A stretch of 64,000 bases of DNA from Diplonema papillatum. Taxonomy: Eukaryota; Euglenozoa; Diplonemea; Diplonemida; Diplonemidae. Of the stretch, positions 20,614 through 59,790 are shown piece after piece; the first letter of the stretch is position 1, and every line of letters starts with the position of its first letter. The DNA lies in NCBI GenBank assembly GCA_030068145.1, contig JAPJBO010000260.1, forward strand, positions 124,001-188,000, written 5' to 3'. The notes beneath the pieces were generated by a model. That model was not told where the DNA came from. It searched no databases and saw only the letters and a list, made by a program, of their open reading frames with translations. The position numbers were made by a program, and so were the translations under genes.

Positions 20614-20690
20614 CTGCGCGTACCTGACGGGTTTTTAGAGGTAAAGTTTGCTTGAAATTCCGGGGGTTTTGGAGCGACTTTCTCGAGGGC
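20614..20690 (-). repeat. Intron-3'-end repeat
   Basis: On the minus strand it reads CCCCCGGAATTTCAAGCAAA, CTTTACCTCTAAAAAC and then the acceptor of the 20613 exon. Member of the family described in the findings. Confidence 0.7.
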
Positions 20691-20699
20691 GGCGAGCAG

Positions 20700-20935
20700 C
20701 ACGAAGAACACTCGCGGAGTCGGGGCCAGCGCTGATAAAACGAAGTGGAAGCAAACACGGCGATCAGCACCAACTGGCCGAAGGTGATAAAAATGATGAG
20801 GCAAATGTTTCTCGTTCTTCGCGAGCATACAGAGTGTAACCTCTCTGCTTCTTCGTTGGCTTCGTTTTCTCTTTCATGTGCAAGCGTTGCTCCGATAATG
20901 TTCCCTTCAGTAGAAGTGCACAGATCCAAAGAAAT
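20700..20935 (-). CDS. Membrane-segment exon fragment
   Basis: A minus-strand frame reads STEGNIIGATLAHEREN, a charged helix (EANEEAERLHS), a basic patch (CSRRTRN) and then ICLIIFITFGQLVLIAVFAS, a clear single transmembrane segment, followed by FYQRWPRLREC. Basic residues before the segment put the N-terminal side in the cytosol by the positive-inside rule. No ATG in frame; boundaries are unclear. A broken copy is at 26205-26425. It may be the exon before 20087-20613, but phases could not be matched. Confidence 0.45.
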
Positions 20936-21966
20936 GCCATCGCTTTTAGCCCTGCCGTACTCTAGCCTGGACCACCCCGCTCGGTGCGGTCGTGAACGAT
21001 GGAGCGGCGTGAAACGTTTGCCTCCGATTGTTCAAGCCGCTGGCCGTGCATACCATGCATACCCGTTGAAACGACGACCCCCTCGCTGCGGTCTCGAAAC
21101 GTAGAGAAGAGGGGGGTAAGCGGGCCCCCTTCTGGGTTTATCAAACCACGGTGTACCGTGAGAGAAGCTCCAGCGGATAGAGATGGACCCGATAGACCGT
21201 GGTGTAACGTGGCAACACCGTGATAGACAGCGGCAGGCAAATCAATGCAGTTCAAGGGGATAGAGGTGGATCGGCTTAGAGCTGTGGTGACTGCGTACGC
21301 GTACGCACCAGTTGTTCGAAAGCACGTCTACAGTTTGACGTCTTACACTTGTGTTTCCCGGGCAAGAAACAAGAAACCCCGCGAGGAAGTTTACTACGAT
21401 TCCTCAATCCTCGTCAATGAGACTTGCCCGACAAGACGGTTGCCAGCCAGCCCCCCATACCCTTCCCCAGGTCTTCCACGCATGACCCCACTCGTTCTTG
21501 GGCATCTTTGCTGTTTTTGGAGCTGGCTTGCAACCGCCTTTGGAGCTGGCTTCGCGAGCTTAATTCTTCCTGTTGGGTACACGTTTACTCCTGTCTCCTG
21601 TACCCACTTGGCCGAGTACAGCCGGTGACTACGTATACGTGCGTACACGTACGCGTACGCCAAAAACCGTACCGCGAGAGTAGGAGAAAGTAGAAAGGGA
21701 AACTAGAGTTTTCGTCGACCGCACAGGCAAATGATCATGATCAGAAGGTCCTACTTGGGCGGTTCAGTTTCCTCACACATTGCATGTGGCTAAAAAAAAA
21801 TCTGTGTACGCGTACGCGTACGTACGGCAGTACGCTGACAGCATTGGGGGGGGGTTTCGTGCTCTCTTTTTACGAGTCGCCTCCGCCGAAGACTCGATGG
21901 CCATCATCGGGGGGACCGGCTCCGACCTCGGGTCGCTCTATATCTTGCCGAACACAACCCCAAGAT

Positions 21967-22449
21967 TTAACCCCTGGCACACCTTGGAACCTTCGCGTTG
22001 ATGGTCGTGGTGGCGTGGACGCAGTAGTCAGTGACCTCGCGGATTGGAGACGCGTGGGAGTGCCGAGACCGGCAAGGAGACACGTGCGCGTGCACTTTGC
22101 CGCACGTGCAGAACGGCGTCGTCAGCACGGTGCTGCCCCCCGCGGACACGTACGAGTGGCTGGGCGAGGCGGGCACGTGCTGCGCGGAGGTCCTGCGGCG
22201 CGCTGGGGCGGCGCGGGTGTCGCCGCCCCGCGGCGGCACGGCCCGGGGCCTCGGCGTCGATGACCCGCCGGCGTCCGCCGGCGATTGCGCCATCGACGCG
22301 TCGTCGGCGGCGACGGCACCGTTCCCGGTGCCGGCCCCGTGCTGCTGCGTGCGTCCGAACAGCATCTTCCTGACTGCTGACTCTTCGGCGTCTTGCGGGC
22401 GCCATTCGTCGTCGCCGACTGTGCGTAGTTCAAGTGGTGGCACGGGTAG
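21967..22449 (-). CDS. Putative exon, Ala/Ser-rich then Cys/His-rich
   Basis: Acceptor ACCTTCCCAG precedes 22449 in phase 0. The frame reads LELRTVGDDEWRPQDAEESA, VRKMLFGRTQQHG, a low-complexity middle and a Cys/His-containing end (TPFCTCGKVHAHVSPC). It stays open to TAA at 21967, but a donor such as CACTC/GTACGTG at about 22150 may end it earlier. The plus strand is also open. No family recognised. Confidence 0.4.
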   Translation of the reverse strand, partial: LPVPPLELRTVGDDEWRPQDAEESAVRKMLFGRTQQHGAGTGNGAVAADDASMAQSPADAGGSSTPRPRAVPPRGGDTRAAPARRRTSAQHVPASPSHSYVSAGGSTVLTTPFCTCGKVHAHVSPCRSRHSHASPIREVTDYCVHATTTINAKVPRCARG

Positions 22450-22677
22450 CTGGGAAGGTACGGTGGGAGGCGGACCGAGATGGCAAACCGAGACGGATCA
22501 AGAACATCACAGCAAAGAGTACTTCGTTTTCTTCGCGGGCGGAAGCGAGGGCTCAGGGGTCGCAGGAACAGGGGCGGGGGCAGTACTTGAAGAATCAGAG
22601 GCCGCATCGGCTCCCACAGCATCGGGAGTTGCAAACTGAAGATACTCCTCGTTGAAAAATGAAACTGCTTGAGGTGG

Positions 22678-22735
22678 TGTGGTCGGTATAGCCAGGGGGA
22701 ACTACGGGGAACTGACCTTGGGTTGTCTTTTTTTC
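22678..22735 (-). repeat. Reversed copy of the TTCCCCGTAG repeat
   Basis: Reverse complement carries ACACCACC, GGCTATACCGACC-like and CAAGGTCAGTTCCCCGTAG text found at 11275-11325 and 47780-47835. Confidence 0.75.
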
Positions 22736-22736
22736 G

Positions 22737-22845
22737 TGTCTAACAACTGCAATTTGTCAAGAACAAACAGATCGATGGCAGCGTACTATCCTCACTCCCG
22801 TTAGATGAACAAAACAGGTTTGAAGGAAGTGCGCACAATCAAAAG
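22737..22845 (+). repeat. Left terminal repeat of a DIRS-like element
   Basis: Contains TTTGTCAAGAACAAAC, GGCAGCGTACTATC, CACTCCCGTTAG and AACAGGTTTGAAGGAAG followed by GTGCGCACAA. The reverse complement of 53040-53165, just beyond the tyrosine recombinase, carries the same blocks in order. It lies directly before the gag-like relic. Inverted ends are characteristic of the DIRS group. Confidence 0.6.
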
Positions 22846-22876
22846 GGGACGTCCGCCGTTCATCGTGACGACATTG

Positions 22877-23830
22877 ATCTTTCTACTGTGACATGGACGA
22901 TGTCAAAAGGACGTGGCCGCGGTTGAGTGGCCCACGGAGGAGGCGAAAGCTGATGAAAGAACAACATGTGTGTTCTATCCCTCATGCGACACCGTGCACG
23001 CCGAGGGTGCCAATTGCTACCGGTGTGGTAACAAAGGCGATCAGACCTGCCTGAAGAGCAGGCTGAAAAACAAGCAGGTGGTTGACCGGCTTGGCCTCCC
23101 GGAGGCAAAAAACGCTTGGGTGTGCCCCCCTTGCGCCTGGGCTCTAAGCGGTGGTGCGCTGCTTGTCGACCCTGATCGCCTAGTGGTTGACCAGCAAAAA
23201 GACCTCGACGACGAGGAACTTCTTGGCGTAGAGTCGATGGCTGTGCCACCATCGGCTCTCGCCAGTTCGGACCCGGCGGTACGGGCATTGGCTCTGCAGA
23301 TGCAAGCAGCAGGCGGCGTAAGCAGCGCTGCAAGAAGAGGTCCTGGTTTTGCGATCTCAAACGGACTCTCTTAGGGTGCCGTTTGACCGACCTGCGCCGC
23401 GTGTGCCTTTCCTGGGCTATCCCTAATCTGTGGATGTGATACTCAACCGCCTTCAGCACAGGTACGGGCCTTTCCCGGAGAGGCCAGAAACCGACGGATC
23501 GGGACGCAGCCACGAGTTGCGTGTGCTGTGGGGGGTGCTCAGTCACTCTCGCAACGAGAAAGAGGTCTGGACCCGAGACCGCTTGCCGTTCCTCCACCAG
23601 CTGATGGTCCTGATGGAAGATCTCCGGATCGGTCGGGAGTCGAATGAGCACTCGTCAGTGGCGACGGCCATGACGATCTCATACGAATCGTACCTGCACG
23701 GCGTGCGGTGGGACGAGTTCACCGACAAGGTGTTGCGAATGGCCGTGAAAGCCACTTCGGACTCGGACCGCGTCCAGGACGCGTCCAAAAAGGTGAAAGA
23801 GGGGAGGAAACGCGCCTTCCTACCCCCAGC
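22877..23830 (+). pseudogene. Gag-like ORF with zinc finger, broken
   Basis: The frame to 23374 (opening near 22893-22913) carries a Cys cluster (CVFYPSC, CYRCGNKGDQTC, WVCPPC), then an acidic linker and a helix. At about 23310 the coherent text moves to another frame (QEEVLVLRSQTDSLRVPF), meets a TAG at 23425, and continues as VDVILNRLQHRYGPFPE to about 23830 with a helical, capsid-like segment (HQLMVLMEDLRIGRES). One or two frame shifts and a stop make it dead. Position behind the terminal repeat supports the ORF1/gag of a DIRS-like element. It is cut off where the 23874-24510 exon region begins. Confidence 0.55.
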
Positions 23831-23873
23831 TCGTTGCCAAAAAAGTTCGCAAATGAAATTTGCTGAGATCCGT

Positions 23874-24510
23874 TTACGGGAAGAAAGGGGACAAACCCAG
23901 GAGGTCGGCAACTCCTTCGAGCGGCCGCGCGAGGTTGTAGAGGGAGTGCGACGCACGCGGCGGCGACGAGGGGGGCGGCTGCTGCGTGTGCGGGTGCCGC
24001 TCGGGCCTGCCGGCAGGCGCCCCGCCGCCGCCGCTGCCGGCGCTGCCGCCGCGCTGGGACTGCGGGCGGTCTCGAGACGGGGATCGACCGGAGGAAGCGT
24101 ACTTCGCCTTGCCGCGGCCTGCCGGCTCTGTGGCGCGGCTGGACGCGTCGTCGGACCCTCCGCCGCTGTGCTCCGCCGCGCGGGCCACGCCGCCCACGCG
24201 CGGCACCGACTGGGGGGGCAGCCAAGTGCACGAAGGGCTGCTCGACCGCCCGCCCCCGTTGGCGGCCGCCGCGCCGCCCCCTTCGTCGCCGGAGCTCAGA
24301 GAGTCGTGCGGAGGCGAGGCCTCGAGCAGGCTACGGAAGTCGCTCCGCGGGCGCCGCCGGGTACCCTCCCGACGGTCACGCCGCCGCTGGACGGCCTCCT
24401 GCAGCTGCGACACCTTCAGCTTCAGATCCTGGATCCGCGCTCTCCCTTCGCCCAGGGGCCCGCCGAGAGCAGGCCCCCATGACATCCAGGCTCCCCTTCT
24501 CTTCGGCGTC
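23874..24510 (-). CDS. Exon with short coiled coil and Ser/Gly-rich tail
   Basis: The minus-strand frame reads PALGGPLGEGRARIQDLKLK, VSQLQEAVQRRRDRREG, SDFRSLLEASPPHDSLSSGD, then Gly/Ser/Pro-rich disorder. An ATG at 24527 is in frame but falls inside a dispersed repeat, so it is probably not the real start. Third positions are G/C-rich. The 3' end is unclear; the frame runs out at 23874. Broken copies of its 5' part lie at 25240-25762. Function unknown. Confidence 0.5.
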
Positions 24511-24529
24511 CTTTTTTTAGCGTTCATTG

Positions 24530-24690
24530 TGGTTTGGAGGTCCGGTGTTTAAGGGTCTCAGGTTGACGGTTTTTAGAGTGAGAGTTCGGTTGCAATGTTT
24601 AGTGTTCCCGACAATCCCAAATGGACGTACAGATTGTGTGTGTGCGTGTGTGTTTGTGCAATTTAGCTTAGTGCGTGCTTGTGGTGAGCG
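24530..24690 (-). repeat. Intron-3'-end repeat joined to the GTACAGATT block
   Basis: On the minus strand: AATCTGTACGTCC, GGGATTGTCGGGAACAC, then CAACCGAACTCTCACTC, TAAAAACCGTCAACC and CTTAAACACCGGACC, leading into the exon. It shows that the two dispersed blocks can belong to one unit. The right part also matches 33415-33475. Confidence 0.65.
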
Positions 24691-25239
24691 GATTTCCAGG
24701 GGTGTGCTTGTTGTTTACCGTATCTCCGAGCTAGGCTTGACTGAGCTTCGCCACGTGGCTGGACGCGTTTTCGGACCCACCGCCGATGTGCTCCCCGCAC
24801 GTCACGCTCTCCCACCAGTGGTTCACATAACCACTGGATCGGACCCCTGGTTTTCAGCCTTGGTTTTTCCCCTGTGCAACTTCAGGTGAAAGAATTCTCA
24901 TCAAGGGGTTGCATTTTCCATTCGCACTTTTGGCAGGGGCCGCACTTTGGATCTGGGTCCGAATCAATCCGATCTTTCCAAATACGCCGTTCTCGGAAAG
25001 AATAAAAATGAGGGTGTTCCTGCAGGTTGATGTGCACTGTGGGCTCCTGCAGGGCCTGTGTACACAGGGACCAGCAGGGTGACCTCATCGCTCAGACATG
25101 TCATTTTGCGTTTCGGGTTCGTTTTCGCAGGGTAACGCGCAGTGCAAAGATGCAAGCGAAACGGCACGAACGGCAATAAGACAGCCTGGTCACACCTCTG
25201 CGTCGGCGCACGAGGCGCCCGAATGGAGGATCGAGTTCC

Positions 25240-25490
25240 GTGTCGGGCGCAGCCAAGTGCGCGAAGGGCTGCTCGACCGCCCGGCCGCCGCGCCACCCCC
25301 CTTCGTCGCCAGAGCTCAGCGAGCCGTGCGGAGGCGAGGCTTCGAGCGGGCTCCGGAAGTCGCTCCGCGGGCGCCGCGGTGCCCTCCCGACGGTCACGCC
25401 GCCGCTGGACGGCCTTCTCGACACATTCAGCTTCAGGTCCTGGATTCGTGCCCGCCCCTCGCCCAAGGGCCCGCCGAGAGCAGGCACAGC
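25240..25490 (-). pseudogene. Partial copy of the 23874-24510 exon
   Basis: Reads PALGGPLGEGRARIQDLKLN, then the register shifts, SDFRSPLEASPPHGSLSSGD and a short rest. It lacks the QLQEAVQ segment. It is 0.9 kb upstream of the source exon, in the same orientation. Confidence 0.7.
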
Positions 25491-25762
25491 TGCGTTGCCC
25501 TAATTGCCCCGGGCCCATTCAGTCTGCTTGCGACCGGTGTACGAAAAACGGCAAGTGCGGGGGAGCGACGCCGGGTGCCCTCCCGGCGGTCACGCCGCCG
25601 CTGGACGGGCCTGATCGACACATTCAGCTTCAGGTCCTGGATCCTCGCCCAAGGGCCCGCCGAGAGCAGGCACCGCTGCGTTGCCCTAATTGCCCCGGGC
25701 CCATTCAGTCTGCTTGCGACCGGTGTACGAAAAACGGCAAGTGCGGGGACTAGGAAACCAAC
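25486..25762 (-). repeat. 186-bp tandem duplication containing exon fragment
   Basis: A 76-bp segment with GCCCCGGGCCCATTCAGTCT and GCTTGCGACCGGTGTACG is present at 25486-25562 and again at 25672-25747. Between lies another piece of the coiled-coil exon. Plus-strand translation of the segment gives CPNCPGPIQSACDRC, a Cys pattern noted in the findings. Confidence 0.8.
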
Positions 25763-31619: not shown

Positions 31620-31800
31620 GTGTCAGTCCATAACAAACAAAAATACATATGAACGCGGACAACAGACCGGTACGGGCTACAAGGCAACCCCTGCTCAACT
31701 TGTAGAACGTGGGGGGCCCAAGACTACACTCCACGAAGGAATGTACTTGGTGTCGGTCACAAACAGTCCCGGACATGGCTAGCCATAACCCATAACGAAA
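31620..31800 (-). repeat. Dispersed repeat (partners 33500, 43066, 45850)
   Basis: Reverse complement of 45835-45990 over most of its length: GGCTAGCCATGTCCGGGACT, GTGACCGACACCAAGTAC, GTAGTCTTGGGCCC, GTACCGGTC. This copy is inverted relative to the other three. Confidence 0.85.
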
Positions 31801-31864
31801 GCGTGCACGCAATATACAACCCGTAACCACATAGCCCTTTCTTGCTCTAAGAGAACCCATTCAT

Positions 31865-32018
31865 GAACGGTCACACGGAGACCCGAAAACCCCGGAATTT
31901 CAAGCGAACTTTAACTCTAAAAACCGGACCCAGCTGGTGCGTCACGCGGCTTTGTTGCCGCGGCAAAAGCGACAGAATCAGTCGCAAAGCGGCCCGGATT
32001 TGCGCGGGATGCCGTCGC
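31865..32018 (+). CDS. Candidate plus-strand exon after an intron-end repeat
   Basis: The repeat reads here on the plus strand (CCCCGGAATTTCAAGCGAAC, TTTAACTCTAAAAACC) and is followed by CGGACCCAG, a good acceptor, and 87 bases later by CGCAA/GTACCTTG, a possible donor. The enclosed DNA is GC-rich and open in more than one frame, one of them Cys-rich (CCRGKSDRISRKAARICAGC). Predicted only from context. Confidence 0.25.
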
Positions 32019-33099: not shown

Positions 33100-33185
33100 C
33101 CTTTAAAGTGAAGGCTCGCTTGAGAATCCGGGATTTCAAAGTCTCCGCTCCGGGTTTCCCTTCGGAGAATGGGTTCTCTAGCAGC
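33100..33185 (-). repeat. Intron-3'-end repeat, no exon confirmed
   Basis: Minus strand: GAGAACCCATTCTCCGAAGG, CGGAGACTTTGAAATCCCGG, ATTCTCAAGCGAGCC. A short open frame with ATG follows (MARAQFLDIRYTENNENV), ending in low complexity. Whether an exon exists is unclear. Confidence 0.5.
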
Positions 33186-33499
33186 ATTCCAAGAGGGTGC
33201 GGGGCTTTTTTTTTTTCAACAAAGACACACGCACTGCCACCACTGCAGATATGATTGCATGCTAGTATCCGATACCTTGAGGAACCTTTCCGTCAATGGA
33301 CCCCCGGGGACTTAAAACCCCCCGGATCCCTGGGCGAAGTTACACTCTAACAAACATTTCTTGTGCTGCGGGCAAGAAGCCTGGCTCCCCCGCTCAATGT
33401 CGGCTTTTCTAGCGTTTATTGTGGTTTAGAGGTTCGGTGTTTTAGGGTCTCCGTTTGACCATTGAGGCTGTGAGGCGGGTGGTATGTGGGTAGTAGGTA

Positions 33500-34015
33500 T
33501 GCTTAAATACGGCTAGCCATGTTTGTAAGTGTTGCGACCGACACCAAGAAGAAATTCGCTTTGAATTTAGTCTTGGGCCCCCCACGCGCATGCATGTTGA
33601 GCAGGGGTTGCCATGCAGCTCGTATCGGTCTGTAATATGCGTTCTTACTTCCTTTGGGTTGAGGAGGACGTGCGGTGGGAGGGTCGGGTAGTAGTACTTT
33701 TCTTTTAAGGGGCGGTCTTCTTCCGGACAAACTTTTGAAATACGGCAATTCAAATACGGTTTGTTGAGCCATTTCACCCCTTCCTGATCGAACGCTGCGA
33801 GGGGTTGTAGCGTTGTTTTCAGGGGGGGTTTGCAAGAACGTGCTTGGAATGGGTATGTGCTCAACACCGCACTGGTCCCATCTGCGCCGTGTTTCGGTCC
33901 TTTAAGCCACGGACACATAAGGCGGATCATCATCAGCGCGGAACCTGAGTGTCTGCAGACAGGACAGCGGTGTGAGTCTGGTTTGTCAGGCGGCTGTTCG
34001 TAGCTCGTCACAGCC
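33500..34015 (+). repeat. Two dispersed repeats side by side
   Basis: 33500-33640 belongs to the GGCTAGCC/GACCGACACC family; 33830-34015 to the GACAGCGGTGTGAGTCTG family. A further member of the second is at 34770-34925. Confidence 0.75.
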
Positions 34016-34999: not shown

Positions 35000-35774
35000 G
35001 GCGCCTGCCCTGTAGTATACATATCTGGGGAAAAGAGGGGGAACGCGTGTCCCGTCCGCACCCGGTCGGATGAGGCAGATCCTTGTGGGCCGTGGCTCAT
35101 GTTGGGAAGGCGGCAGGGACGAAGGTGGCCAGTAGATATGCCGCTATGGGGTTTCTGGAGTGAAAGTTCGCGGATTAGGTCTTTTCCTTAAACCGGCACA
35201 CACAAGCGAAACGAAGCGCCTTGCCTTCTTTGTTTTCGAAGTTCGGCCTCCGGAGGTTATCGCACAAGGACTGGCTTGAAGACGAACCCCGACCCGCCGA
35301 CGAGGGTGTCCTGCCGACGTCACACGCCGCTCCATCCCCCTGTCCTAATAGACGATGTCGCCACAAAGTTCGAGGTTAAACTGCAGAGAATTTACCAATG
35401 GACTGCATTGCAACATGAGGTGGACGCGCATACCCTTGTGAAGCAGGACACCGATCTGACCCACAACGGCTTCAACCCCAAAAGACCAAGCTGCCCTGGC
35501 CCCAAGCGAACTTTCACTCCAAAAAAGAAAGAAAAAACGCAAATGGTGCATGTTTCCCTTTTTTCTCTTCCTTTTTTTTTTTTTTTTTTCCTGGAACGGT
35601 TAATCGCGGGGGGAGCTCTTTACTCACGCAGATGGGGTCTTGCCGTGCGATTCTTTGTTCATGTTGTAATTCGCAAGCCTACACGGTGGTTTTACGGACG
35701 ATGTAGCTTCTTGGAAAACAACGGGACGTCGTCACACAGTGAACAGTGAAAAATAAATACGGGGAGGCACTAGT
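35000..35774. other. No gene seen
   Basis: A 157-codon plus-strand frame at 35276-35749 has a charged N-terminal part (DDVATKFEVKLQRIYQW) but ends in a T-run translation. CAAGCGAACTTTCACTCC at 35506 is an intron-end-repeat core on the plus strand; no exon follows. Confidence 0.25.
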
Positions 35775-35998
35775 AGCAGTAGTAGCGGTACGTGCATAAC
35801 ACACGACTTCAAGTCGGTGCAAGCCCGGAAGAGCTTCTGCCCTGACAGCTATTGACGGTAGTGTAGTAGGCTACAGTTGGCTGTAACGGGGAACGGGAAA
35901 TTAGGGTTAGATTCCGGAGAGGGAGCCTGAGAAACGGCTACCGCATCTAAGGATGGCAGCAGGTACGCAAATTGCCCATTGAGAGAAAGGGTGAAACC
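35775..35998 (+). rRNA. Fragment of nuclear 18S rRNA gene
   Basis: ATTAGGGTTAGATTCCGGAG, AGGGAGCCTGAGAAACGGCT, ACCGCATCTAAGGATGGCAG and CAGGTACGCAAATTGCCCA are the universally conserved eukaryotic SSU segment near helices 11-15. Upstream GACAGCTATTGACGGTAG is the conserved stretch before it, and ACGTGCATAACACACGACTT fits helix 8. About 220 bp of the 5' domain is present, with unrelated DNA on both sides. It is a stray fragment, not an rDNA unit. Its deviations from the common GGGTTCGATTCC (GTTAGATTCC) suit an unusual protist. Confidence 0.85.
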
Positions 35999-45090: not shown

Positions 45091-45717
45091 TTAAGACCAA
45101 ACACAGGCTGCCCAACGGGTGCTGGGGAGACAAAAATAATAACCCACACCTCCCCCCCGGTACAAACCCGGCAAAAACATGGAAAACCTCCGAGACGTAT
45201 CACACCACCTATTGTTTTGGGTTTTCAGGGGGTATTTTCTAGGGATCTTTTCAGGATGATCCAACCTCGTGCTGAGAGCCGGAGGGGCGATCAGGGTATA
45301 AGGTACAGTGCAGTATTGAAGGACTGACCGATAAGGACACGCGCCGGGGAAGGTTGTGGCAGAGCAGCGTGACCGTTCTTGGTCCAACAATTTTCGCACT
45401 GCGGCGCTGGTAGTTTTGGCATGCTTCTCCCTCCTCGTCATGCCACCACGGTAATCGCCATTTGTTTTTGAGCTGTAAAGCTTTGAGTTATGAGTCAGAA
45501 TTTCGGCAGTGCGAAGGTTATGGCAGTACTTCCACTTCCAGCAAGAAGCACTCGTAAACCATCTTGTGATGAGTTTCGGCGCGGATTCGCGCGGTGAATA
45601 CCTGTTCAGAGATAATCTGCCTGGACACCTGGCCGGTGTCGCTGAGGTCAAGGGTGGTATGTCGGTAGGCGGGCCTGCAGAGAGGTATCGTACGTCGCTG
45701 ACACACTGGACAGCCTC
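45091..45717 (-). CDS. Unassigned ORF after an intron-end repeat
   Basis: A 228-codon open frame starting inside the repeat at 45777. After a CTGTCCAG acceptor-like site it reads VSDVRYLSAGPPTDIPPL, KLITRWFTSASCWKWKYCHN, MTRREKHAKTTSAAVRKLLD. A second frame is also coherent over 45518-45706 (HHKMVYECFLLEVEVL). This suggests a decayed transposon gene or a misread; identity unknown. Confidence 0.25.
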   Translation of the reverse strand, partial: EAVQCVSDVRYLSAGPPTDIPPLTSATPARCPGRLSLNRYSPRESAPKLITRWFTSASCWKWKYCHNLRTAEILTHNSKLYSSKTNGDYRGGMTRREKHAKTTSAAVRKLLDQERSRCSATTFPGACPYRSVLQYCTVPYTLIAPPALSTRLDHPEKIPRKYPLKTQNNRWCDTSRRFSMFLPGLYRGGGVGYYFCLPSTRWAACVWS

Positions 45718-45800
45718 TCTTTTAGAGTTAAAGTTCGCTTGAAATTCCGGGGTTTTAGGGTCTCTGTGACCTTTCATGAATGGGTTCTCTTAGAGCAAGA
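45718..45800 (-). repeat. Intron-3'-end repeat, best-preserved core
   Basis: Minus strand: AAGAGAACCCATTCATGAAA, GGTCACAGAGACCCTAAAAC, CCCGGAATTTCAAGCGAACT, TTAACTCTAAAAGAGAGG. Confidence 0.75.
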
Positions 45801-45834
45801 AAGGGCTATGTGGTTACGGGTTGTATATTTAGTG

Positions 45835-45990
45835 CACGCTTTCGTGATGGGTTATGGCTAGCTAGCCATGTCCGGGACTGTTTGTGACCGACACCAAGTA
45901 CATTCCTTCGTGGAGTGTAGTCTTGGGCCCTCCACGTTCTACAGGGTTGCCTTGTAGCCCGTACCGGTCCGCGTTGTCCGCGTTTATATG
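45835..45990 (+). repeat. Dispersed repeat, GGCTAGCCATGTCC family
   Basis: Full-length partner of the inverted copy at 31620-31800 (same order of blocks). Confidence 0.85.
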
Positions 45991-47654
45991 TATTTTCTCG
46001 CAGTGTGGTGCTTGGGTTTCGCGACACTTGCGGTGCTTCACGTGGTGCGGTTTGTTTCCGGCCTATTATAAGGTTTTTTTTGGGTAGATTTGCAGGGTAA
46101 AACTGTTCGTTGCTCGCCACAGCTAAGGGACTCTGGGCACACTGGGTACCCGTGGTTAGTGAGGTTATTCGTCTGATGGAGTCGTCGTTGCTGCGCGTCG
46201 TTTACAGTGCTTCTTTTTGCATGCTGTCATTTTATGCCAGGGCTAAAACCCAGTACTGGCGTTTGCTTGCGATAGATGAGAGGGTTGGATGAATTGAAAA
46301 TCCAATGTCGGGGGTTGTGCAGCGCCAAGCGGCACACTTGACAGGGTGTACAGGATTCTCTTTCCTCTGTTGCTTTACATCCGTCCAGCCAGTCGGCCAG
46401 GGATCGCAGACAAGGATTCCGGGTCCAACGGGCGCGTCTTGTCGTCTTGCTTGCGGGTTTTGTGTCTCTTGAGCAGGAGCAGGCCCTAAGAGGTTGGCGG
46501 GCGCGGGGTTGTCTGGCACAGCTGGGCTCACCATGAGCAGAGCAATGTGTGCAGCCTGGAAGCGTCACTGGTAACGTTGCTTGCTAATTCTAGAACACAA
46601 CTGCTGACCGAGTTGGCCGAGTTTGGCCCAAACTCACTTGGTGAAGCTCGGGCCCTGCCCTACACGACAAGACACACACAGGGGAAAAGGTCCTGAGTAA
46701 AACAAATATGCCTTCGCTCTTTCGCTATCCTTTCAAAAACTGTTGCGTTGACGCATCCACACTTTTTTTTTGTGTTTGTGTTTCCGACGATCCCGTGGGA
46801 CGTACAGATTGGTGTCTTTCGACCTTTGTTTGTTTGTGAGGTTCAGCTTGGTGCGTGTGGTCGGTGGGCGGGGGGGTTGGTTAGGAAGCTGGGCTAGACT
46901 TTAATTCATGCTTGAGCCAGGATGCCCACTCCGCAGCCTTTCCGCTGGGCTCTTGGTAGCTGATCCGCTCGCATACACTTTTTTTTTTTTTGAGCAGGCC
47001 GAGTAACGGCCCGAGTTTGGGCCAGGGTATTAGTTTGAAGGCTTCCGGGGTTTGCAGATTTAGACTGTTACTATGGGGTGCTTTTGGGCGGTGTTTCGGT
47101 GCCGTTTTCGCCGATGTACGGCATCTTGGGGCGGAGCCGACACATCTCCACAACTTCGTTCGGCAAAAGAGGGGTCTTCTTGGGTCCTTTATGGGTTAAT
47201 TATGGTCACCCCGTCAGTTTGGCGACACATTTTGCGGGCGTTTTCAACCAGTCTGGATCAAGCTCTTCGGGGGTTTCCGAATGCTTCTGGGTTCCCTGTG
47301 GGGTTGGGTGCCATAATATTATGGGGACGCGATATATTATGGGGACGTGCTCCAAAAACAGTCAAAATCGTAAACAGACAGTCTCGTCAGGCAGCTGAAG
47401 GGGTGGACCTGGGGACCTGTTTTCCTATGATTCCTATGATAATAGGTCCACGTTTTTGGTGTATCTGCACCTGCACCGCCGTGTGTACAACAATATTTTG
47501 CGGTTTTTTTAGCAACATCGCGCCGAAGGCGCGCGGAAAATTTGGGCAAAAATAATTCCGCCCCCTCTTTATCATGTGTGGGCCACTCTCAGCTCGTGTG
47601 GGTTACTCAACTGTCAAACAGGACCTTGGCACGGTATTGAAGCACAGTGGTAGC
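45991..47654. other. Intron B/C, middle part; no gene assigned
   Basis: Minus-strand frames at 46227-46568 overlap in two registers (CDPWPTGWTDVKQQRKENPV in one) and look like a broken transposon ORF. 46620-46700 shares CCCTACACGACAAGACACAC with 50500. 46780-46835 is the GTGGGACGTACAGATTGG block. 46890-46995 is the repeat partner of 43185. Confidence 0.35.
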
Positions 47655-47900
47655 TGCAACAAGGCCCAAGCAAGAGGAACCGTTTTGGTCACTCCAAAGC
47701 TCCGGGTTTTGCGCCGGTGCGTGGCGTTTGAAAAAAATTCCCCTACAAAAACTTTAACTCTAAAAAAAAAAGGACACCCCAAGGTCAGTTCCCCGTAGTT
47801 TCCCCGTAGTTCCCCTTGGCTATACCGACCACACCAAATACAGTATTTTTTGTATTTTTTGGTATTTTATGCAGGGGTTTATACGGGGCTTCGAAAAGAT
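47655..47900 (+). repeat. Partner of the repeat at 11170-11425
   Basis: See 11170. This copy has an extra AAAACTTTAACTCTAAAAAA at about 47747, the core of the intron-end repeat, joined to it. Confidence 0.85.
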
Positions 47901-50545: not shown

Positions 50546-50785
50546 TAAAAACAGGGTTAACATCGGGTACACGAAGCTACTTCTCTGAAGTTTCCTTAAC
50601 CAACCGCCCTGTGCACAACCTCAAGTGGCTGACCTCTGGTTGGATAGCACATGCTACCTCTGGTTTTGTCAATTACGCCCACTTGTTACGGGCTACAAGC
50701 CGTACGTCCACTTTCACACTCTCAATCATGGCGGGCCAAGAGGGAATTCATGCGCGAAAGCGGGCGAAGCAGAGGCAAAGCATAC
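50546..50785. other. Intron B/C, distal end
   Basis: No gene; donor of exon B at 50785/50786 (CCCCG/GTATGCTT on the minus strand). Confidence 0.5.
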
Positions 50786-51258
50786 CGGGGCATGACAAGG
50801 CCCGAGACACACTCCGGGACCTCGAGGGTGTGCTCTTCGAATTGTTCGTAGTCGGAGCGATCCCAGGCGGCCAGCCGCAATTTTTGCGTGAGGGGCACCG
50901 CGGTCGCGAGCTTCGAAGCGCCGAAGCGGCCGGTTTTCTCGAGGTGGCGGCGCAGCTGCAGCGCGGAGCTCGCCCGCTGGATCCGCTCGTGCATCGGGAC
51001 GAGGTTGACCTCGCGCTCGGCGCCGGTGACGAGGTGGTTGAGGACCAGCGTGTTCCCGGCGACCGCCTTCGCGAGGTCGTGGTGCGCGATGTTCAGCTCG
51101 GAGCGGCGGTCCTCCATGCTCTGGCGGAGCTGCTCCTGCGTGTGCAGCAGCCGCTCCATCCGCCTCTCCTGGTCCCGCCACTCCCACGCCACGACGGCGC
51201 CGACCAGCGCCAGCACGGTCGCGATCTCCATCTCGTTGTCTTCGGGATCATACGCCTC
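50786..51258 (-). CDS. Exon B of the four-exon gene: membrane anchor and coiled coil
   Basis: Acceptor AAACACACAG precedes 51258; phase 0 matches the end of exon A. It reads EAYDPEDNEMEIATVLALVG, AVVAWEWRDQERRMERLLHT, QEQLRQSMEDRRSELNIAHH, and continues helical to EQFEEHTLEVPECVSGLVMP. IATVLALVGAVVAWEW is a single membrane segment; acidic residues precede it and basic ones follow, so the coiled coil probably faces the cytosol. An in-frame ATG at 51231 could also start a shorter form. Ends in phase 2, matching exon C. Confidence 0.7.
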
Positions 51259-51261
51259 CTG

Positions 51262-51345
51262 TGTGTTTTTTTGAGTTGTAGTTCGCTTGAGAATCTGAGA
51301 TTTTAGAGTCTCCGGGTGACCTTCGTCGAGTGGGTTCTTTTGAAG
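51262..51345 (-). repeat. Intron-3'-end repeat directly before exon B
   Basis: Minus strand: AGAACCCACTCGACGAAGGT, CACCCGGAGACTCTAAAATC, TCAGATTCTCAAGCGAACTA, CAACTCAAAAAAACACACAG, the last AG being the acceptor. Confidence 0.8.
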
Positions 51346-51497
51346 CTAATACGTACTGGGTGGGTTTGGCTTCTTTCGTGTACACTTCACTAGCTTGCTT
51401 TGGCTTTTTGCTGGCAGTGCATCGCTCGCGCCCTACTTCGCTGAAGTCTCTTGTGGATAACACCTGTTGTGCAGGAAACCCTCGTCAGCTTGGGAGT

Positions 51498-53165: not shown

Positions 53166-53202
53166 CCGGCGTTTGCCTTTATGGCATGCGCGCGCCGCAT
53201 AC

Positions 53203-53521
53203 CGGAAGATAAGACGCCTCGCCGTCTGAAACCTCCTGCTCCGAGTAGTAGGGCGCGTGGTAGTCGTAGCCGGGCTCGGCTGGCGGCTGCTCGAGGTCCA
53301 GCGAGCCCTCGCGGGACTCTGTGTCCCGCAGGCAGCAGAGCGTCTCGAACGCGCGTCTCAGGCTTCCGCCAAAAGACCGCGGAGCAGCATCGTTTCTCGG
53401 CGGCGGCGCCGCGTTCCGGACCGGCGGATCCCGTGCGTACTCGGCGTCGTGGTGAGGCTGGGCTGCGAAAGGAAGCGTGTACTGCGCTCCGGGCGGCGCG
53501 TACATCTTCACCTGAGCGAGG
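53203..53521 (-). CDS. Exon A of the four-exon gene
   Basis: Acceptor TTCGTTCGGCAG lies before 53521 and the donor is CTTCCG/GTATGCG. The likely start is ATG at 53505, 17 bases in, a spacing usual for trans-spliced leader acceptors. It encodes MYAPPGAQYTLPFAAQPHHD, a Pro-rich disordered region, FGGSLRRAFETLCCLRDTES, and an acidic Tyr-rich end (PGYDYHAPYYSEQEVSDGEA). Ends in phase 0, as exon B requires. With exons B-D the protein would be 520 residues: disordered head, membrane anchor, coiled coil, C-terminal domain. Confidence 0.6.
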
Positions 53522-53649
53522 CTGCCGAACGAATCATTCTCCTTTCCCTACTTTAACTGCCATTCCCGTGGAACGAGCAGTTTCGGTGTCTTGCGACCCT
53601 TTGTCCCTTTGCTGTTGATGGTTGGTGGTTTCGGCCCATTGCTCACATT

Positions 53650-53800
53650 CGTTATTGGGGTTAAAGTTCGGTTGAGGATCCGGGACTTTTCCGCAGAGTG
53701 TTTGTGGCGATGTTGGCGGTTGGTCCGCCGTCTTGCGGTGCATGTTTGTGGTTTCAAGGCGGTACTCGAGGGTCTCCGGTTGACCAGTGAGGCTGGGGGC
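53650..53800 (-). repeat. Intron-3'-end repeat upstream of exon A
   Basis: Minus strand: GGTCAACCGGAGACCC, later CGGATCCTCAACCGAACTTT, AACCCCAATAACG. The core is 110 bp from the acceptor, further than at other exons. Confidence 0.65.
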
Positions 53801-53899
53801 GAAGATATAATTGTACGTAAGCTTGTGGCTACAGCGACAGGTACCTCCTTGAAGCAGCGACCTCTCGGGGATTCTTGAGAGCGCATGTCGGTTTTTTGC

Positions 53900-54795
53900 A
53901 TGGCGTTCAATGCGGGATCCCGCACTTCTGTCTCGCTTCTTAACCGTGCGCTGGCTATATCTGAGCATCGGCCTGGTACAACGGATCGCGCAGGTTAGCT
54001 TTTCGCCCCTTTATGAACTGATAGCGCGATCTTGCCCACCCACCCACCCCATGCATTCGGGTAATGCACGAGAACCCGACAGCGGTACTCAGCCGGGCCG
54101 TATGCACTCGTCCGCGGATCCATGCGGTACTTAAATTTGTGTCGAAGAACCGCGCTGGCGGGTACGAACACTGCGCCCCTATGGGTGAAGACACGTCAAA
54201 AAGGACCAACGGTTGCTGCTGTGAAAAGACGTTGAACAACCCCTTTCGGAGGAGTACAGGTTTCCTATTTTGAAGACATAAAGCTCTTTGAGTTTGAACT
54301 ACGAGGCGAACACCAAATGGGCGTGTCGGCCTCGTTGAAGAGTCTAGGCGGTGGTGAGCGTGAACGCCTAGCAAGGTGACCGTGCAGCGGTGATGATGCT
54401 AACGGACATTTTTGCATGTAGGAAGGGCGTCGACTCGCGGTGAGGACCACGAGAACAGCGGAGGGAGTGGAAGTAGCAAATCGGTTCACGACAGATGGGG
54501 ATGCATTGCATTGCAGTAGTGCGCACAGTGATGCCACTCGCTGTTGACCATGCAGGGGTTGTGTTTTTTGGTTGCAAGTGCGGGTTTACTTCGAGAGAAC
54601 AACAAACGATTGACCGATTTCATCGGGAAACGAGGACGCATTTTGAAACCTGCCATCCGTGCCCAGACCTGACCCGCACGGACATTCCCGCATGTGTCCA
54701 CAGAGCCAATCCTTTTCCCGAAGTTACGGATCCAGCTTGCCCACGACGGAGCAGACCGCGGGACCGGTTTTCACGAACTATCACGAGTGAGCTTT
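53900..54795. other. No gene seen
   Basis: Only short frames on both strands; no motif or clear repeat noted. Confidence 0.3.
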
Positions 54796-55258
54796 TGCGT
54801 CTTCAGTTCGGGCCCCTAACGGTGCCTTGGGGGCCGCGAGGTAGTGGCACAGGACAAAACGCGACGAGCCCACGGCGGAAGCGACAGCAGGAAGAAAGGC
54901 CGCGCCTAAGGAGGGGCAGAGTACCGTGCGGATTGGAAGCCTCGCCCTTTTCACTGGCGAGCATCTGCGTCTGAGCTCGGGAGACCCGCGTGCACCTCAA
55001 CTCTGTGGCACGGGGCGAAATACGACAAGCCGTTCGAAGCCACGGCGAAAGCGACAGCAGGAAAAGAAAAGCCTCGCCTAAGGCGGAGCAGTACCGTGCG
55101 GACTGGGAGCCTTGCCCTTTTCACTGGCGAGCATGTGCGTCTTGAGCTCGGGAAACCCGCGACTATGAGGCGTGCACCTCAACTCTGTGGCACGGGGCAA
55201 AACATGACAAGCCGGTCGAAGCCACGGCGAAAGCAACGCAGGAAACGAAAGGCCTCGC
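54796..55258 (-). pseudogene. Three tandem broken copies of the MGMT 3' segment
   Basis: Downstream of the intact gene, copies begin near 55258, 55076 and 54897 (periods about 181 and 168 bp). Each repeats the stretch from just before the catalytic PCHR to the C-terminal tail, for example VASNGLSYFAPCHRV in the second copy. In the third, PCHR has become LCHY. An inserted G shifts the frame after PCHRV in the first two copies. ELKT(Q/H)MLASEKG is recognisable in the two nearest copies. Confidence 0.8.
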
Positions 55259-55927
55259 CTAAGGCGGAGCAGTACCGTGCGGACCGGGAGCCTCGCCCTT
55301 TTCACTGGCGAGCATCTGCGTCTTGAGCTCGGGCCCCCACCGGTATCTCGGCGCCCGCGACGTTGAGGCGTGCACGACTCTGTGGCACGGGACGAAATAC
55401 GACACGTCGTTCGAAGCCACGGCGGAAGCAACGGCGCGGACAGCGGAAGGCCGGCCAACCGACTCGGCCACGTCCTTGTACGACCAGGTCTGGCCCTTGG
55501 GGATGCGGAGCAGCTGCTTCCACACCGCAATTTGGAACTCGGTCCCGGTTAGGCACAGCTGCGGGCTCCCATCCTCGAAGGCGCGGCGCACCGCTTCGGC
55601 GGCCGCCGACGGCTCGCTGACGACGACGGCCCCCGGCCACTTCTTGGCCAGGGCTGATTTCCCCTCCTCCTCGCCGGCACCGAGTGCGGGGTCGTCGCCG
55701 AAGGACAGGTAGCAGAGGACCTTTTCCTCAGCCCCGCCGCGGCCGTCGGCCACCGCCGCGAAAGCTTGGCCGAACGGCGTGTCGACGACGCCGCAGCCGA
55801 CCTTACGACCCTTCCACTCCGACGCGCTGAAATCCACCACCCGTCCCCCCGCGCCCGCTTTGGTGGACGCCGGGCGGGGCTTCTTCACCTCGGAGGCGGC
55901 GATCACGGTCGTGAGCCGCCGTTTCAT
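55259..55927 (-). CDS. MGMT: O6-alkylguanine-DNA alkyltransferase (Ada/Ogt/MGMT family)
   Basis: ATG at 55927 opens a 222-codon intronless frame. Residues about 35-125 form the N-terminal domain (VGCGVVDTPFGQAFAAVADG, CYLSFGDDP). From about 130 the catalytic domain reads GTEFQIAVWKQLLRIPKGQT, WSYKDVAESVGRPSAVRAVA, SAVASNDVSYFVPCHRVVH. The PCHRV motif holds the acceptor Cys (near 180), which takes the alkyl group from O6-alkylguanine in a suicide repair reaction; GRPSAVRAVASA is the DNA-recognition helix region. A helix ELKTQMLASEK closes it. Short basic N-terminus could be a nuclear signal. A repair enzyme, nuclear by inference. Confidence 0.9.
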   Translation of the reverse strand: MKRRLTTVIAASEVKKPRPASTKAGAGGRVVDFSASEWKGRKVGCGVVDTPFGQAFAAVADGRGGAEEKVLCYLSFGDDPALGAGEEEGKSALAKKWPGAVVVSEPSAAAEAVRRAFEDGSPQLCLTGTEFQIAVWKQLLRIPKGQTWSYKDVAESVGRPSAVRAVASAVASNDVSYFVPCHRVVHASTSRAPRYRWGPELKTQMLASEKGEAPGPHGTAPP

Positions 55928-55929
55928 GA

Positions 55930-57055
55930 CGCCCTCCGCTGCCTTTTTGCAAGATGCTTTGAGGATCTTCCTTTCTTCTAAGGGGATGGTGCTTCAGAAA
56001 GCCCCGTTAAGCAAGGAAAAGCGAACCCCCCGAACTTGTGACGCGAACACAGATTGAGTCGACTGTATTGTGTTGACCTCCCCGGAACTGAGAGCTTCGA
56101 GAGAATCGACATTTAGGCCAGGGTGGCGTACGCATCACATCAGGGGTGGCATGCCAGCGAGGTGGAAAGGGGCCACGAGTACTTGACAGAGAGGGACTTC
56201 GCGGTTTATCGCCGAAGTCCACGTGCGCCCCGGGGTCAAGTATTCGCGTAAAAGTGCGGAAGAAACGGCTACTGAAGAACCTGGCCTCCGCCTTCGCCGG
56301 CATGGAAATGCCGGCCTGCGCTGTGCTGCACGGAACGCGGAGCAGAGACGCTGAGGTGGAGGGTAGCAGGGAATTAGGGTCGGTTTTCGGAGAGGGGAGG
56401 CCACCACATCTAATGGTGACAGGTGGAAAAGGCGACCGCCTTTCTGCTTAGCAAGGGGGAGAGGGATAGGGAGGAGGAATGGCACGCGGACTTTTTACTT
56501 GGACGCCTACACCCGGGCACTGAACCCAGATTTGCCTGTACGCCGGACAACGCAGGGTTTACAGTCGAAACGCCAAGAGCGACAGCACTCAAGCATTGTC
56601 GCTGTCAAGGGAACTGCCCGAGACCGACGATGGCACCGCTCTGTTGCGCGGAGAACTCCATCCTTAGAAGCTGGGGTTAACCTTAGGCAAAAAGAGCGTT
56701 CGCAAGGTGTGCTTCCGTGTGGGCTACCCGCACACTGCCTCCTCCGTGATTTTTTTGTAAATGGCGCCTTTCACGAGTATTTCCTGCAAAACCAGGTGCG
56801 TCTTCAAAAATACTCGGAGGGGCCAATTCAGATTTACCTAGGGGTCAGGCATAGCCTCCATCGAGAATTTGCAACGCGGCCTCCTCGAGTAGTTTTGAAG
56901 TTTTTTTATCAAAGTCGGGTGCTGTTTTGTTCGTGCGTTTTGACCTGAACGCGTTTAGGTTAAAGTGCCGGCAACGTTCCTTTTTGGCTGGTAACAAGTA
57001 TGCTCTCTAAGGAGGTAGTTACTGGTTATCACAAAAAAGAGAATATAGAGAGGCG
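55930..57055. other. Intergenic; no gene seen
   Basis: Short frames only. A phrase CCTTAGAAGCTGGGGTTAAC at 56659-56678 resembles the inner end of the CACGGTG-family element. Confidence 0.35.
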
Positions 57056-57061
57056 CGTCGC

Positions 57062-59551
57062 CTACGGTGACCTGCTGTGAACCGACGCCGAGTTGTGCTG
57101 CGACCGAAGAGCGAGCGCGTCTCTTTTGATCTCGGCGGCCCGGGCTTCGCGCGCCTTGCGGCTCTCTTCCAACGCTTCGATGGTGCGGACGCGGCCCTCG
57201 AGGCGCGCCATCTGCCGTTCTTCGATCCGGGCCGCCGCGGCCAGGTGCTCCCGCCTCCGCTCCACCGCGTCGGCCGCCAGCCGGGAGCGGGTCTGCTGCG
57301 CGAGCTCGAGGCGCCGGTCCAAAGGGACCTGCGAAGGCGAAGTGACAGGCGACGGGCAGGCCTGCTGCTGCTGCTGCTGCTGTTGCTGCTGCTGCGCTGG
57401 CTGCTGAACGGGGTCAGTTGGAACCGGGCCGTCGAGGTCTGTGGGGGAGCGGGCGATGGCGGCGGGCGGGGACTGCGACCGCACGGAAGTTGCATCCGCG
57501 AGGAATTCGTCGCTGCCCCGGCGGACCTTCGCCGCCAGGCGGTCGACGAGCGCGGCGCGGCGGGACTCGTCGTCGGCGCGCACCTGCGACAGGGCGGCCT
57601 CGATACGGGCCTGCTTGCCGGCCGCCGCCCGCCGGGCCTCCTCCTGCGACCGCGCGGCCTGCTCCTCCCTTTTAAGCACGACACCCCGCCACCGCTCGCG
57701 CTGGGCCGCCTGCTTCCGCGACTTTTCCCCGGCCTCGTGCTCGGCCCGCTTCGCGGCGATTTCGCTGCGGTGCTTTTCGGCGTCCTTCGCCGCCCGCCGC
57801 GCCTCGCGCTGGTCGGCAGCCCGCTCCCTCCGCCGCGCCTCGTACGCGGCCTCGCCGGCTTCGATCCGGTTCTCGACGCTTTCGAGCTTCAGAACCCGGG
57901 TTTGCAGGGCGCATGACAGCGCCTTGTCCCGCCGCCGGTCTACCTCCCGCGCCAGCGCTTCCCTCCGCTCGCCGTCGCCGGCGCGGGTCTCCGAGAGGCG
58001 GGCTTCGGCCGCTTCTTCCTTCCCCGCAGCCGCCTCGAGCCGGTGGAGCTCGGTGTCGTGCTCTTGGTCGCGCTTGCGGTGGAGGGTCGCCGCCAGCCGC
58101 GCCGCGTAAGCGGCTTCGCTGGTCGGCGAGTGCCGGGGGGGCGACGCGGCGGTCTTCGCCGGGGACGAAGGCACGGCCCGCGCCTCGGCGCGGCGGGCGA
58201 GCGCCGCTTCGCGCTTCTCGCGGCGGGCCGTTTCGACGGCGCGCCGGTCCTTCGCGTCGTCCTTCGCATCGCACGCGGCTAGCCTCCGCCGGGCGACCGC
58301 CGCCGCCAGCCTCGCGTCCGCCCTGTCTTCGCGCGCGCGCCGCGCCGCCCGCTCCGCCTCCGCGGCCGCCCGCTGCCGCTCGGACACCACGAGCTGCCAG
58401 TGGTACTTCAGCGCGAGGTTGTCCTCGTACTCCTGCCACAACCGGTCGGTCTCATCGACAGCCGCCTTGTCCGCCACCGGCGGGCACGACAGCGAGCGGG
58501 GGGGGCCAGGGTCTTGGTCTTCCCCACCGTCGTCGCCCGGCGGCACCCCCCCGCAGCCGGTCTCTGGGCGCCTGCGGCGGCCCGCCGCCTGCCGCTCCGC
58601 CGCCGCGCACCTTCCGTCGTACCTTTCGAGCGACGCGCGTAGCCTCGCGGCCCGCTCGGCTTCCTGCCGCTGGACACTCGCGTGCCGCCGCGCAGCCTCG
58701 GCCCGGCTGGCCTCCCTTGCCGCGTTCTCGAGGAGCCCGCCGACTGACCCGGCCTGCTTGGCGACCGTTTCGAACAGCCCGGGAAGCGTGTTTTTCCCGG
58801 GGGCGCCGCCGCCGGCCGGCGGCTTGCCGGGCGGCTGGAGGAAGTCCTCGCGGAAGTACCCCGGGTTCGCGGCGGCGTGCTTGAGCGACAGCAGGTGCCG
58901 CCCGTGCTGCGCGCGCCGCCGGGGCGCCGCGAAGGCGGCAGGGTCGGCCGCTATGTCTTGCAGCCGCTTGCTGGTCGTCGCGAGGAGCCGCCGCGCCTTC
59001 GCTTCGAGCCCCGCTTTCCGGCGGTCGGCCGCGTCGTCCGCCCGCCGCTGCCCCACCTCCCTTCTATGCACGGTGCCGGCGGCGGAGCAGAGCTGCAGCA
59101 GCTCGCCGCCGCGGCCCGAAGCGCCGCCGGAAAGGAGCTCGCGCTCGTGCGCGCGGAGGCCCCGTTCCCGCCGTTTCTGCAGGTTTTCCTTGTGCAGCGC
59201 GACCATCCCGGCGAGCTTCTCGGTCTCCTTCCGCGCCTGCTCCCGCGTTTCGGTGCTCTCTTTGAACGCGAGGAGTTCCTCGAGCCTGCCGGCGCGGCCA
59301 CGCGTTGCCCTCGGCTCGCTGTCGCCGGCTGTCATCTTCCTCCGCAGCTGCCCGGTGGCTGCAGGGCCCGCGCCGGGGTCGCCGGCCGCGGCGTCCGCCG
59401 CCTTCAGCAGCATGTGCGCGAAGCGCGTCTTTTGTCGCAGGAGCAGCGGCTTCTCGCGGACGCCGTTCACCTCGTGGTACTTCTGCCACTTGGGCGGCAG
59501 GTGCGCGATGTACACCTTGTGCACGACTTCCTCGCCGACAGCCTCCATCAT
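57062..59551 (-). CDS. 829-residue coiled-coil protein with polyglutamine tract
   Basis: One uninterrupted frame from ATG 59551 to TAG 57062. The first 55 residues (VHKVYIAHLPPKWQKYHEVN, GVREKPLLLRQKTRFAHMLL) form a distinct N-terminal segment. The rest is very rich in Ala, Arg and Glu with long stretches of heptad character, most likely extended coiled coil. Near residue 720 lies PVQQPAQQQ with about 12 consecutive Gln. Codons end in G or C almost throughout. Composition suggests a structural protein (cytoskeleton, basal body or flagellum), an inference only. The minus strand is the coding one; long plus-strand frames are shadows of its codon bias. Confidence 0.8.
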   Translation of the reverse strand: MMEAVGEEVVHKVYIAHLPPKWQKYHEVNGVREKPLLLRQKTRFAHMLLKAADAAAGDPGAGPAATGQLRRKMTAGDSEPRATRGRAGRLEELLAFKESTETREQARKETEKLAGMVALHKENLQKRRERGLRAHERELLSGGASGRGGELLQLCSAAGTVHRREVGQRRADDAADRRKAGLEAKARRLLATTSKRLQDIAADPAAFAAPRRRAQHGRHLLSLKHAAANPGYFREDFLQPPGKPPAGGGAPGKNTLPGLFETVAKQAGSVGGLLENAAREASRAEAARRHASVQRQEAERAARLRASLERYDGRCAAAERQAAGRRRRPETGCGGVPPGDDGGEDQDPGPPRSLSCPPVADKAAVDETDRLWQEYEDNLALKYHWQLVVSERQRAAAEAERAARRAREDRADARLAAAVARRRLAACDAKDDAKDRRAVETARREKREAALARRAEARAVPSSPAKTAASPPRHSPTSEAAYAARLAATLHRKRDQEHDTELHRLEAAAGKEEAAEARLSETRAGDGERREALAREVDRRRDKALSCALQTRVLKLESVENRIEAGEAAYEARRRERAADQREARRAAKDAEKHRSEIAAKRAEHEAGEKSRKQAAQRERWRGVVLKREEQAARSQEEARRAAAGKQARIEAALSQVRADDESRRAALVDRLAAKVRRGSDEFLADATSVRSQSPPAAIARSPTDLDGPVPTDPVQQPAQQQQQQQQQQQACPSPVTSPSQVPLDRRLELAQQTRSRLAADAVERRREHLAAAARIEERQMARLEGRVRTIEALEESRKAREARAAEIKRDALALRSQHNSASVHSRSP

Positions 59552-59664
59552 TTGATCGTCGCCCCCCTCCCGTCTGGTTGGTATTCGCGGGTTCGGCTTA
59601 TTCTCAACGTTACAGGGAGGAGGGGGGGTGGGCTACTCGAGCCAAACTAGTGTTCCCGCCTCTT

Positions 59665-59790
59665 ATTATTAGAGTTAGCTCGCTTGAGAATCCGGGGGGT
59701 TTAGAGCCTCCGGGTGAGCTTCGTCAAATGGGTTCTTTATTTGGATGAAGGGCCTGCGCTCTGCAAGGGACAAAGCTTACCATCCCGGCG
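59665..59790 (-). repeat. Intron-3'-end-type repeat upstream of the 829-codon gene
   Basis: Minus strand: GGGACAAAGC at its start, then AAGAACCCATTTGACGAAGC, CACCCGGAGGCTCTAAACC, CGGATTCTCAAGCGAGCTAA. Lies about 120 bp before the start codon. Confidence 0.7.

Follow-up and report, generated by a model that had tools for sequence, protein, structure and literature searches.

LINE-1-type retrotransposons are characterized by 5'-truncated copies, an A-run target, priming from a T-run and an APE endonuclease. In several clades of Penelope-like elements (PLEs), pseudo-long terminal repeats (pseudo-LTRs) or tandem copies and a hammerhead ribozyme are typical, and PLEs of the Chlamys/Naiad group, in work by Craig et al. 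of 2021, reportedly carry an N-terminal GIY-YIG domain. Near exons, mammalian transposable elements (TEs) are underrepresented, with a preference for donors among those that lie within 20 bp of an exon (PMC3088655, in part). In Diplonema papillatum, TEs abound and are found inside introns, and the most frequent repeat reaches about 6,000 copies at identities of at least 90%; the sections of the genome account cited here name LINE-1, SLACS, R2, jockey, TATE, MULE and Helitron, with no Penelope-like elements among them, and report no strand or acceptor bias of TEs (PMC10161547, in part). Here we describe a dispersed repeat in a 64,000-nucleotide (nt) stretch of this genome (contig JAPJBO010000260.1, positions 124,001 to 188,000 of the forward strand; hereafter the window); the repeat is the 3' end of a retroelement, young and raggedly truncated at the 5' side. 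On balance, we favour the explanation that this is a retrotransposon, most likely Penelope-like, which enters A-tracts (AY|AAAA) by target-primed insertion and whose copies survive longer before exons.

The earlier note on this DNA had pointed to a dispersed core repeat, and this is borne out by seven matches in the window at no more than three mismatches, against 0.09 expected, and by 3,152 exact matches across the genome of 271 Mb, where the reversed pattern has none. The profile search that it proposed, run on the window, gave 10 matches at E<=0.013 and two marginal ones. Core variants of the NCAAC type occupy 288 places in the genome. Across 38 flanked loci (30 high-identity copies and eight core matches) the repeat has a single fixed 3' end, CTTTAACTC, usually followed by TAAAA, while the 5' ends differ between copies, with approximate lengths, over the 59 of 60 loci that were measured, that start at about 17 nt and reach at least 1,782 nt. 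A fixed 3' end combined with ragged 5' ends indicates 5' truncation, which is the pattern left by reverse transcription.

In a longer copy, L040, this 3' end is continuous with an element bearing an open reading frame (ORF) of 1,463 codons (L040:5000-9391). Within this one frame a GIY-YIG-like match (residues 50-96, E=3.5e-4, 21.3 bits, Pfam cut-off 22.6) lies N-terminal to a reverse transcriptase (RT)-like region (RVT_1, approximately residues 686-763, E=0.048, 13.8 bits, cut-off 29.6, from a scan of part of the ORF), both matches being below cut-off. A ubiquitin C-terminal hydrolase (UCH) domain is clear (E=6.6e-12), and together with a zinc-finger-like tail it makes up the C terminus (L040:8000-9388). 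Judged by its sequence, the parent is most likely a PLE with a nuclease in front; its PLE clade and the resemblance of its motifs we presume. Among the 33 protein matches listed, which come from 32 scored candidates out of 3,469 at first look, 24 are 94-100% identical, 20 of them without internal stops, and seven are 74-76% identical. A short interspersed nuclear element was considered and rejected, because the 3' end runs on into the 1,463-codon ORF; the 5' ends, moreover, vary rather than being fixed. The UCH domain and zinc-finger-like tail are an odd cargo for a retroelement. A second long open frame (L040:1747-5247, plus strand) is repeat-rich and overlaps the start of the element ORF, and other copies contain open frames of up to 2,762 codons.

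The position of copies relative to predicted exons was assessed in a pooled set of 118, comprising 50 exact copies (from the first 51 listed places, with C3:266431 omitted as lying in another locus), 40 NCAAC variants (the first 40, in list order, of 100 listed places) and 28 high-identity copies (leaving out L033 and L009). Where sense and antisense coding segments overlapped, the stronger was kept, so that antisense segments were set aside in L100 (23.8), L106 (17.2) and L116 (15.9). After this filter, 20 sense and no antisense segments were found over all 118 copies. The sense segments start downstream of the copies in numbers of 14, 1, 4, 1 and 0 per successive 60-nt bin, and although the outer bins of the 360-nt stretch have less power, a comparison with just the following two bins still gives a ratio of 14 to 2.5. 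Copies near exons make up 3/50 of the exact, 2/28 of the high-identity and 9/40 of the NCAAC copies; the variants exceed the other copies (5/78, p=0.016), and these other copies in turn exceed the one or so expected (p=0.0035). Near and other copies of a group are alike in their divergence upstream of the core. A Pfam scan of all 14 near segments gave four firm matches, namely threonine dehydratase IlvA (L101, with PDB support), an LSD1-type amine oxidase (L116), cactin (L096) and kelch (L024), and three weak ones (L085, L051, L123). The idea, raised in the earlier note, that the repeat is placed preferentially at acceptors is upheld as a statistical tendency (14 of 118 copies in the 0-60 nt bin) and concerns a minority of copies; similarly, the check that it suggested for strand and distance bias, when run against predicted exons, showed a bias to sense and to 0-60 nt, while the word 'always' proved wrong.

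In the whole genome, CAGG matches number 362 at 3-23 nt after the 3,152 exact cores and 286 at 63-83 nt, counts in which the first near positions are occupied by the A-run and a few copies are entered twice. For the 288 NCAAC variants there are 42 near CAGG matches, a count that stands without a matched far control. Two further starts within 60 nt (L014, L054) appear at other settings and are outside the 14, as are L012, L017 and L018, where short exons seem by eye to follow the copy. Two copies 1.6 kb apart, L091 and L092 (C31:288228 and 289827), have nearly identical downstream flanks and represent a local duplication.

The 5' junctions point to the target. An A-run of at least three is present at the junction in 44 of 59 copies and absent from 15, and part of these counted runs may be element sequence. 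The base before the junction A-run is C or T in 77% of cases, compared with 53% before A-runs of at least four elsewhere, and the second base before it is A in 48% compared with 28%. The target therefore looks like AY|AAAA on the element strand, or TTTT|RT on the nicked strand. For two other PLEs, cleavage with an AT-rich preference has been described (PMC11167929, in part). Upstream of predicted exons that are free of the element, the sense strand has frequencies of 0.30 for A and 0.17 for T, against a background of 0.25 and 0.22, and AYAAAA occurs in 7/37 such stretches compared with 45/670 resampled background stretches, while its antisense form occurs in 1/37 compared with 26/670. In a survey of diplonemids other than D. 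papillatum, A was the most frequent base in the tract preceding acceptors in D. japonicum, and 2-16% of introns had a YTRAY branch motif (PMC12621601, in part). Each of the 14 near cases has its first AG 8-30 nt downstream of the core, AG being a common dinucleotide; this spacing is workable for a branch point and loosely fits one. YTRAY as a preserved branch point was considered and rejected, the TTCAAC variant giving it no support.

The copies also tend to point with genes. Of the 26 loci that have coding evidence (codon model, 60 flanked loci), 23 carry the element in gene-sense orientation, as do 9/9 high-identity loci with such evidence. Among 100 listed exact places, neighbouring copies at least 1 kb apart share a strand in 67 of 88 pairs, as do neighbouring NCAAC variants in 26 of 28 pairs (contigs with more than one), and 10 of 11 exact copies on contig C1 lie on the plus strand. 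As a control we used an unrelated dispersed repeat, AAGGTCAGTTCCCCGTAGTT, with 501 copies at no more than one mismatch; 8 of its 19 pairs agree in strand (p=0.001 for the difference), a comparison that took in all same-contig control pairs and part of both the single places and the element's places. The control agrees in strand with the element at 15 of 35 places compared, so it does not follow it. This control repeat is also present in the window, at 11260-11299, 22695-22734 and 47766-47805. The longest validated cluster on D. papillatum contig tig00022654_12 comprises 108 genes of one direction (PMC10161547, in part).

According to the favoured explanation, the nuclease would nick the transcription-template strand in a T-run, the complement of AY|AAAA, and the T-run would then prime reverse transcription on the A-tail, so that the direction of the element would follow that of the A-run. 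Ahead of exons, A is more frequent and T less frequent on the sense strand, and this would bring landing sites and sense orientation together at acceptors. Such copies would then remain recognisable for longer, perhaps because the TTAAC and A-run end of the element can replace the displaced branch point and tract. A bolder version, which we consider possible and put forward tentatively, is that the retrotransposon is specialised in intron 3' ends: its nuclease would read the A-rich tract that, in this lineage, replaces a pyrimidine tract, entry would be in sense, and the terminus would carry a substitute branch point and tract, with each insertion rebuilding the acceptor it had disrupted.

Several observations weigh against the favoured explanation. 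Regarding the element's class, RVT_1 is not listed in the whole-ORF Pfam scan of L040, its part-scan match, like that of GIY-YIG, being below cut-off; a PDB search of the element protein gave no RT match; the 3' region is not repeated inside L040, so that no pseudo-LTR is present in this one copy; and a hammerhead ribozyme was not found in the two copies searched, L040 and L041. Regarding placement, the exons are predictions of a codon model with five training ORFs, three of them from the window, and host TE ORFs may count as coding in it; 104 of 118 copies do not lie beside a predicted exon, and for seven of the 14 near segments Pfam gave no match. Within the variant set, near-exon copies are not more diverged than the rest, and TTCAAC, the variant most often beside exons (8/23), has no YTRAY motif. 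The AYAAAA enrichment rests on seven of 37 sites. Finally, the target motif is in general about 1.5-1.7 times commoner on the sense strand, below the strand bias seen, and the sense bias is larger than this motif bias alone explains, implying that antisense copies would also have to be removed, or insertion coupled to transcription or replication.

The best surviving rival, which we regard as rather doubtful, is that insertion is random in place and strand and that selection later keeps sense copies at acceptors, their end serving as branch point or tract, while others decay or disappear. The NCAAC variants, which have diverged further upstream of the core and are regarded as older, would fit this with their higher share near exons (9/40 against 5/78), as would their greater strand agreement (26/28 against 67/88 in exact copies). 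Against it stand the enrichment of exact and high-identity copies, too, at exon starts (5/78 against about one, p=0.0035) and the sense orientation of all nine high-identity loci with coding evidence; part of the bias, moreover, already follows from the A-run target.

The other explanations lean in part on copies within the window, where the following features were found:

31640..31923, plus strand: young 5'-truncated copy of the element's 3' end, 284 nt, 98.2% identity to L040 (blastn, nhmmer), antisense to most supported window genes
45712..46221, minus strand: 510-nt copy of the element's 3' end, 92.5%; the closest predicted exon lies 2,065 nt downstream
51264..51362, minus strand: copy that stops 7 nt upstream of exon 50785-51261; ACACACAG lies at the junction
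50785..51261, minus strand: predicted exon directly downstream of the preceding copy, codon score 57.4, no Pfam match
20632..20672, minus strand: short copy of 41 nt, 90%, followed by CCCGTCAG and then by the open frame 20330-20613 (codon score -4.2)
59666..59757, minus strand: copy 96 nt upstream of the codon-model segment of an 829-codon gene
33101..33209, minus strand: degenerate copy, no predicted exon within 8 kb downstream
33434..33633, minus strand: degenerate copy in two pieces (33434-33465 and 33508-33633)
33276..33326, plus strand: weak match, E=0.013
53653..53709, minus strand: degenerate copy 139 nt upstream of predicted exon 53200-53520
60439..60507, plus strand: copy on the strand opposite the neighbouring gene
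24541..24597, minus strand: marginal match, E=0.089; open frame 23900-24470, of contested coding strand, lies downstream
35503..35524, plus strand: marginal core-only match, E=0.11, upstream of a small-subunit (SSU) rRNA fragment

The repeat does lie just before 51261 and 20613, as had been claimed, ending 7 nt and 19 nt upstream with an AG soon after it; the exon 50785-51261 is strong by codon score, but 20330-20613 is an open frame without codon support. The copies said to be near 53521 and the 829-codon gene are indeed upstream of them, but farther off (139 nt and 96 nt), and the one placed near 24510 is marginal, its exon contested, with the codon model favouring the plus strand (28.2 against 25.8 for the minus frame). 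The statement that copies are always in the gene's orientation fails: 10 of 12 codon-supported segments are on the minus strand, and 31640-31923, 60439-60507 and the weak match 33276-33326 are on the plus strand. The two best-preserved window copies (31640-31923 and 45712-46221) touch no predicted exon.

A different possibility is that the element marks or uses spliced-leader trans-splice acceptors, with coupled 3'-end formation giving its RNA a defined end. By eye, L012 and L017 lie before short ATG-bearing stretches and could be trans-splice sites, and the window copy at 59666 is upstream of a gene start. However, the four homology-supported exons (L101, L116, L096, L024) begin inside conserved domains, which indicates cis introns; trans-splice marking, one of the options in the earlier note, is not supported as the rule, and we consider this explanation improbable. 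Chance and ascertainment, whereby a common repeat was simply noticed beside exons, gain from the fact that only two window copies lie right against an exon start, and for one of these the exon lacks codon support. This is very unlikely given that copies taken in list order, with their flanks ignored, supply 12 of the 14 near cases, that the pooled set yields 20 sense and no antisense segments, and that the whole-genome CAGG counts point the same way while the control repeat shows no strand runs. Weakest of all, and barely credible, is the introner-like descent of host introns from element copies, since, although a minority of copies abut exon starts, the 5' ends are ragged with many truncation points and no fixed donor (lengths from about 17 nt up to at least 1,782 nt), the window copy at 51264 fills just the last ~100 nt of the ~1.9 kb that separate two predicted exons, and a predicted exon is not adjacent in 104 of 118 copies.

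Several other features of the window were recorded. The GTAAGCTTTGTCCC text at 59782 was considered as an intron start and rejected, as it recurs on the other strand at 60387-60444 beside a second copy; we read it as part of the element or as a flanking repeat. In the 829-codon gene, the 5' part occurs as a tandem repeat (59202-59501 and 59779-60078, 97% over 300 nt) with an element copy between, and adjacent repeats of such a kind occur in dozens of D. papillatum gene models (PMC10161547, in part). A diverged eukaryotic SSU rRNA fragment (35585-35956, plus strand, 98.5 bits, model positions 57-425) directly follows a T-run and the core-only match. Tandem arrays are present at 11400-12690, 13058-13592, 14844-16142 and 62960-63550, with periods of about 42, 16, 117-119 and 11 bases. 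A Pfam scan of 20 window ORFs gave matches in two host genes, with an O6-methylguanine methyltransferase (MGMT) domain at 55259-55993 and a dual-specificity phosphatase (DSPc) domain at 61576-62898, both on the minus strand.

The significance of these observations is that a retroelement family is over-represented just upstream of exons, where mammalian TEs are depleted, and tends to share the direction of the genes over entire contigs. If the favoured explanation is true, target choice would make insertion splicing-neutral, retroelement targeting would be tied to the A-rich acceptor regions of diplonemids, and the turnover of branch points and tracts would have a genomic source in a marine group of great abundance. 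D. papillatum is a marine flagellate whose published transcriptome makes the claim directly testable.

Compared with known systems, the element resembles the Chlamys/Naiad PLEs in 5' truncation, and its single ORF, with a GIY-YIG-like match ahead of an RT-like one, both below cut-off, may be a further likeness. It differs from them in its C-terminal UCH domain and zinc-finger-like tail and in its A-run target with sense and acceptor bias, and in that neither a hammerhead nor a pseudo-LTR was found in the one to two copies examined. In the portions of the literature examined, no report of a PLE with acceptor or sense bias was found. Like introners (PMC9860276, in part), it is a mobile family tied to introns, but it neither makes up the intron nor supplies the donor, and most sampled copies are off exon borders. 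With LINE-1-type elements it shares 5' truncation and an A-run target, and T-run priming would be a further likeness; in contrast to them, its nuclease is GIY-YIG-like rather than APE, and its copies are gene-sense and near acceptors.

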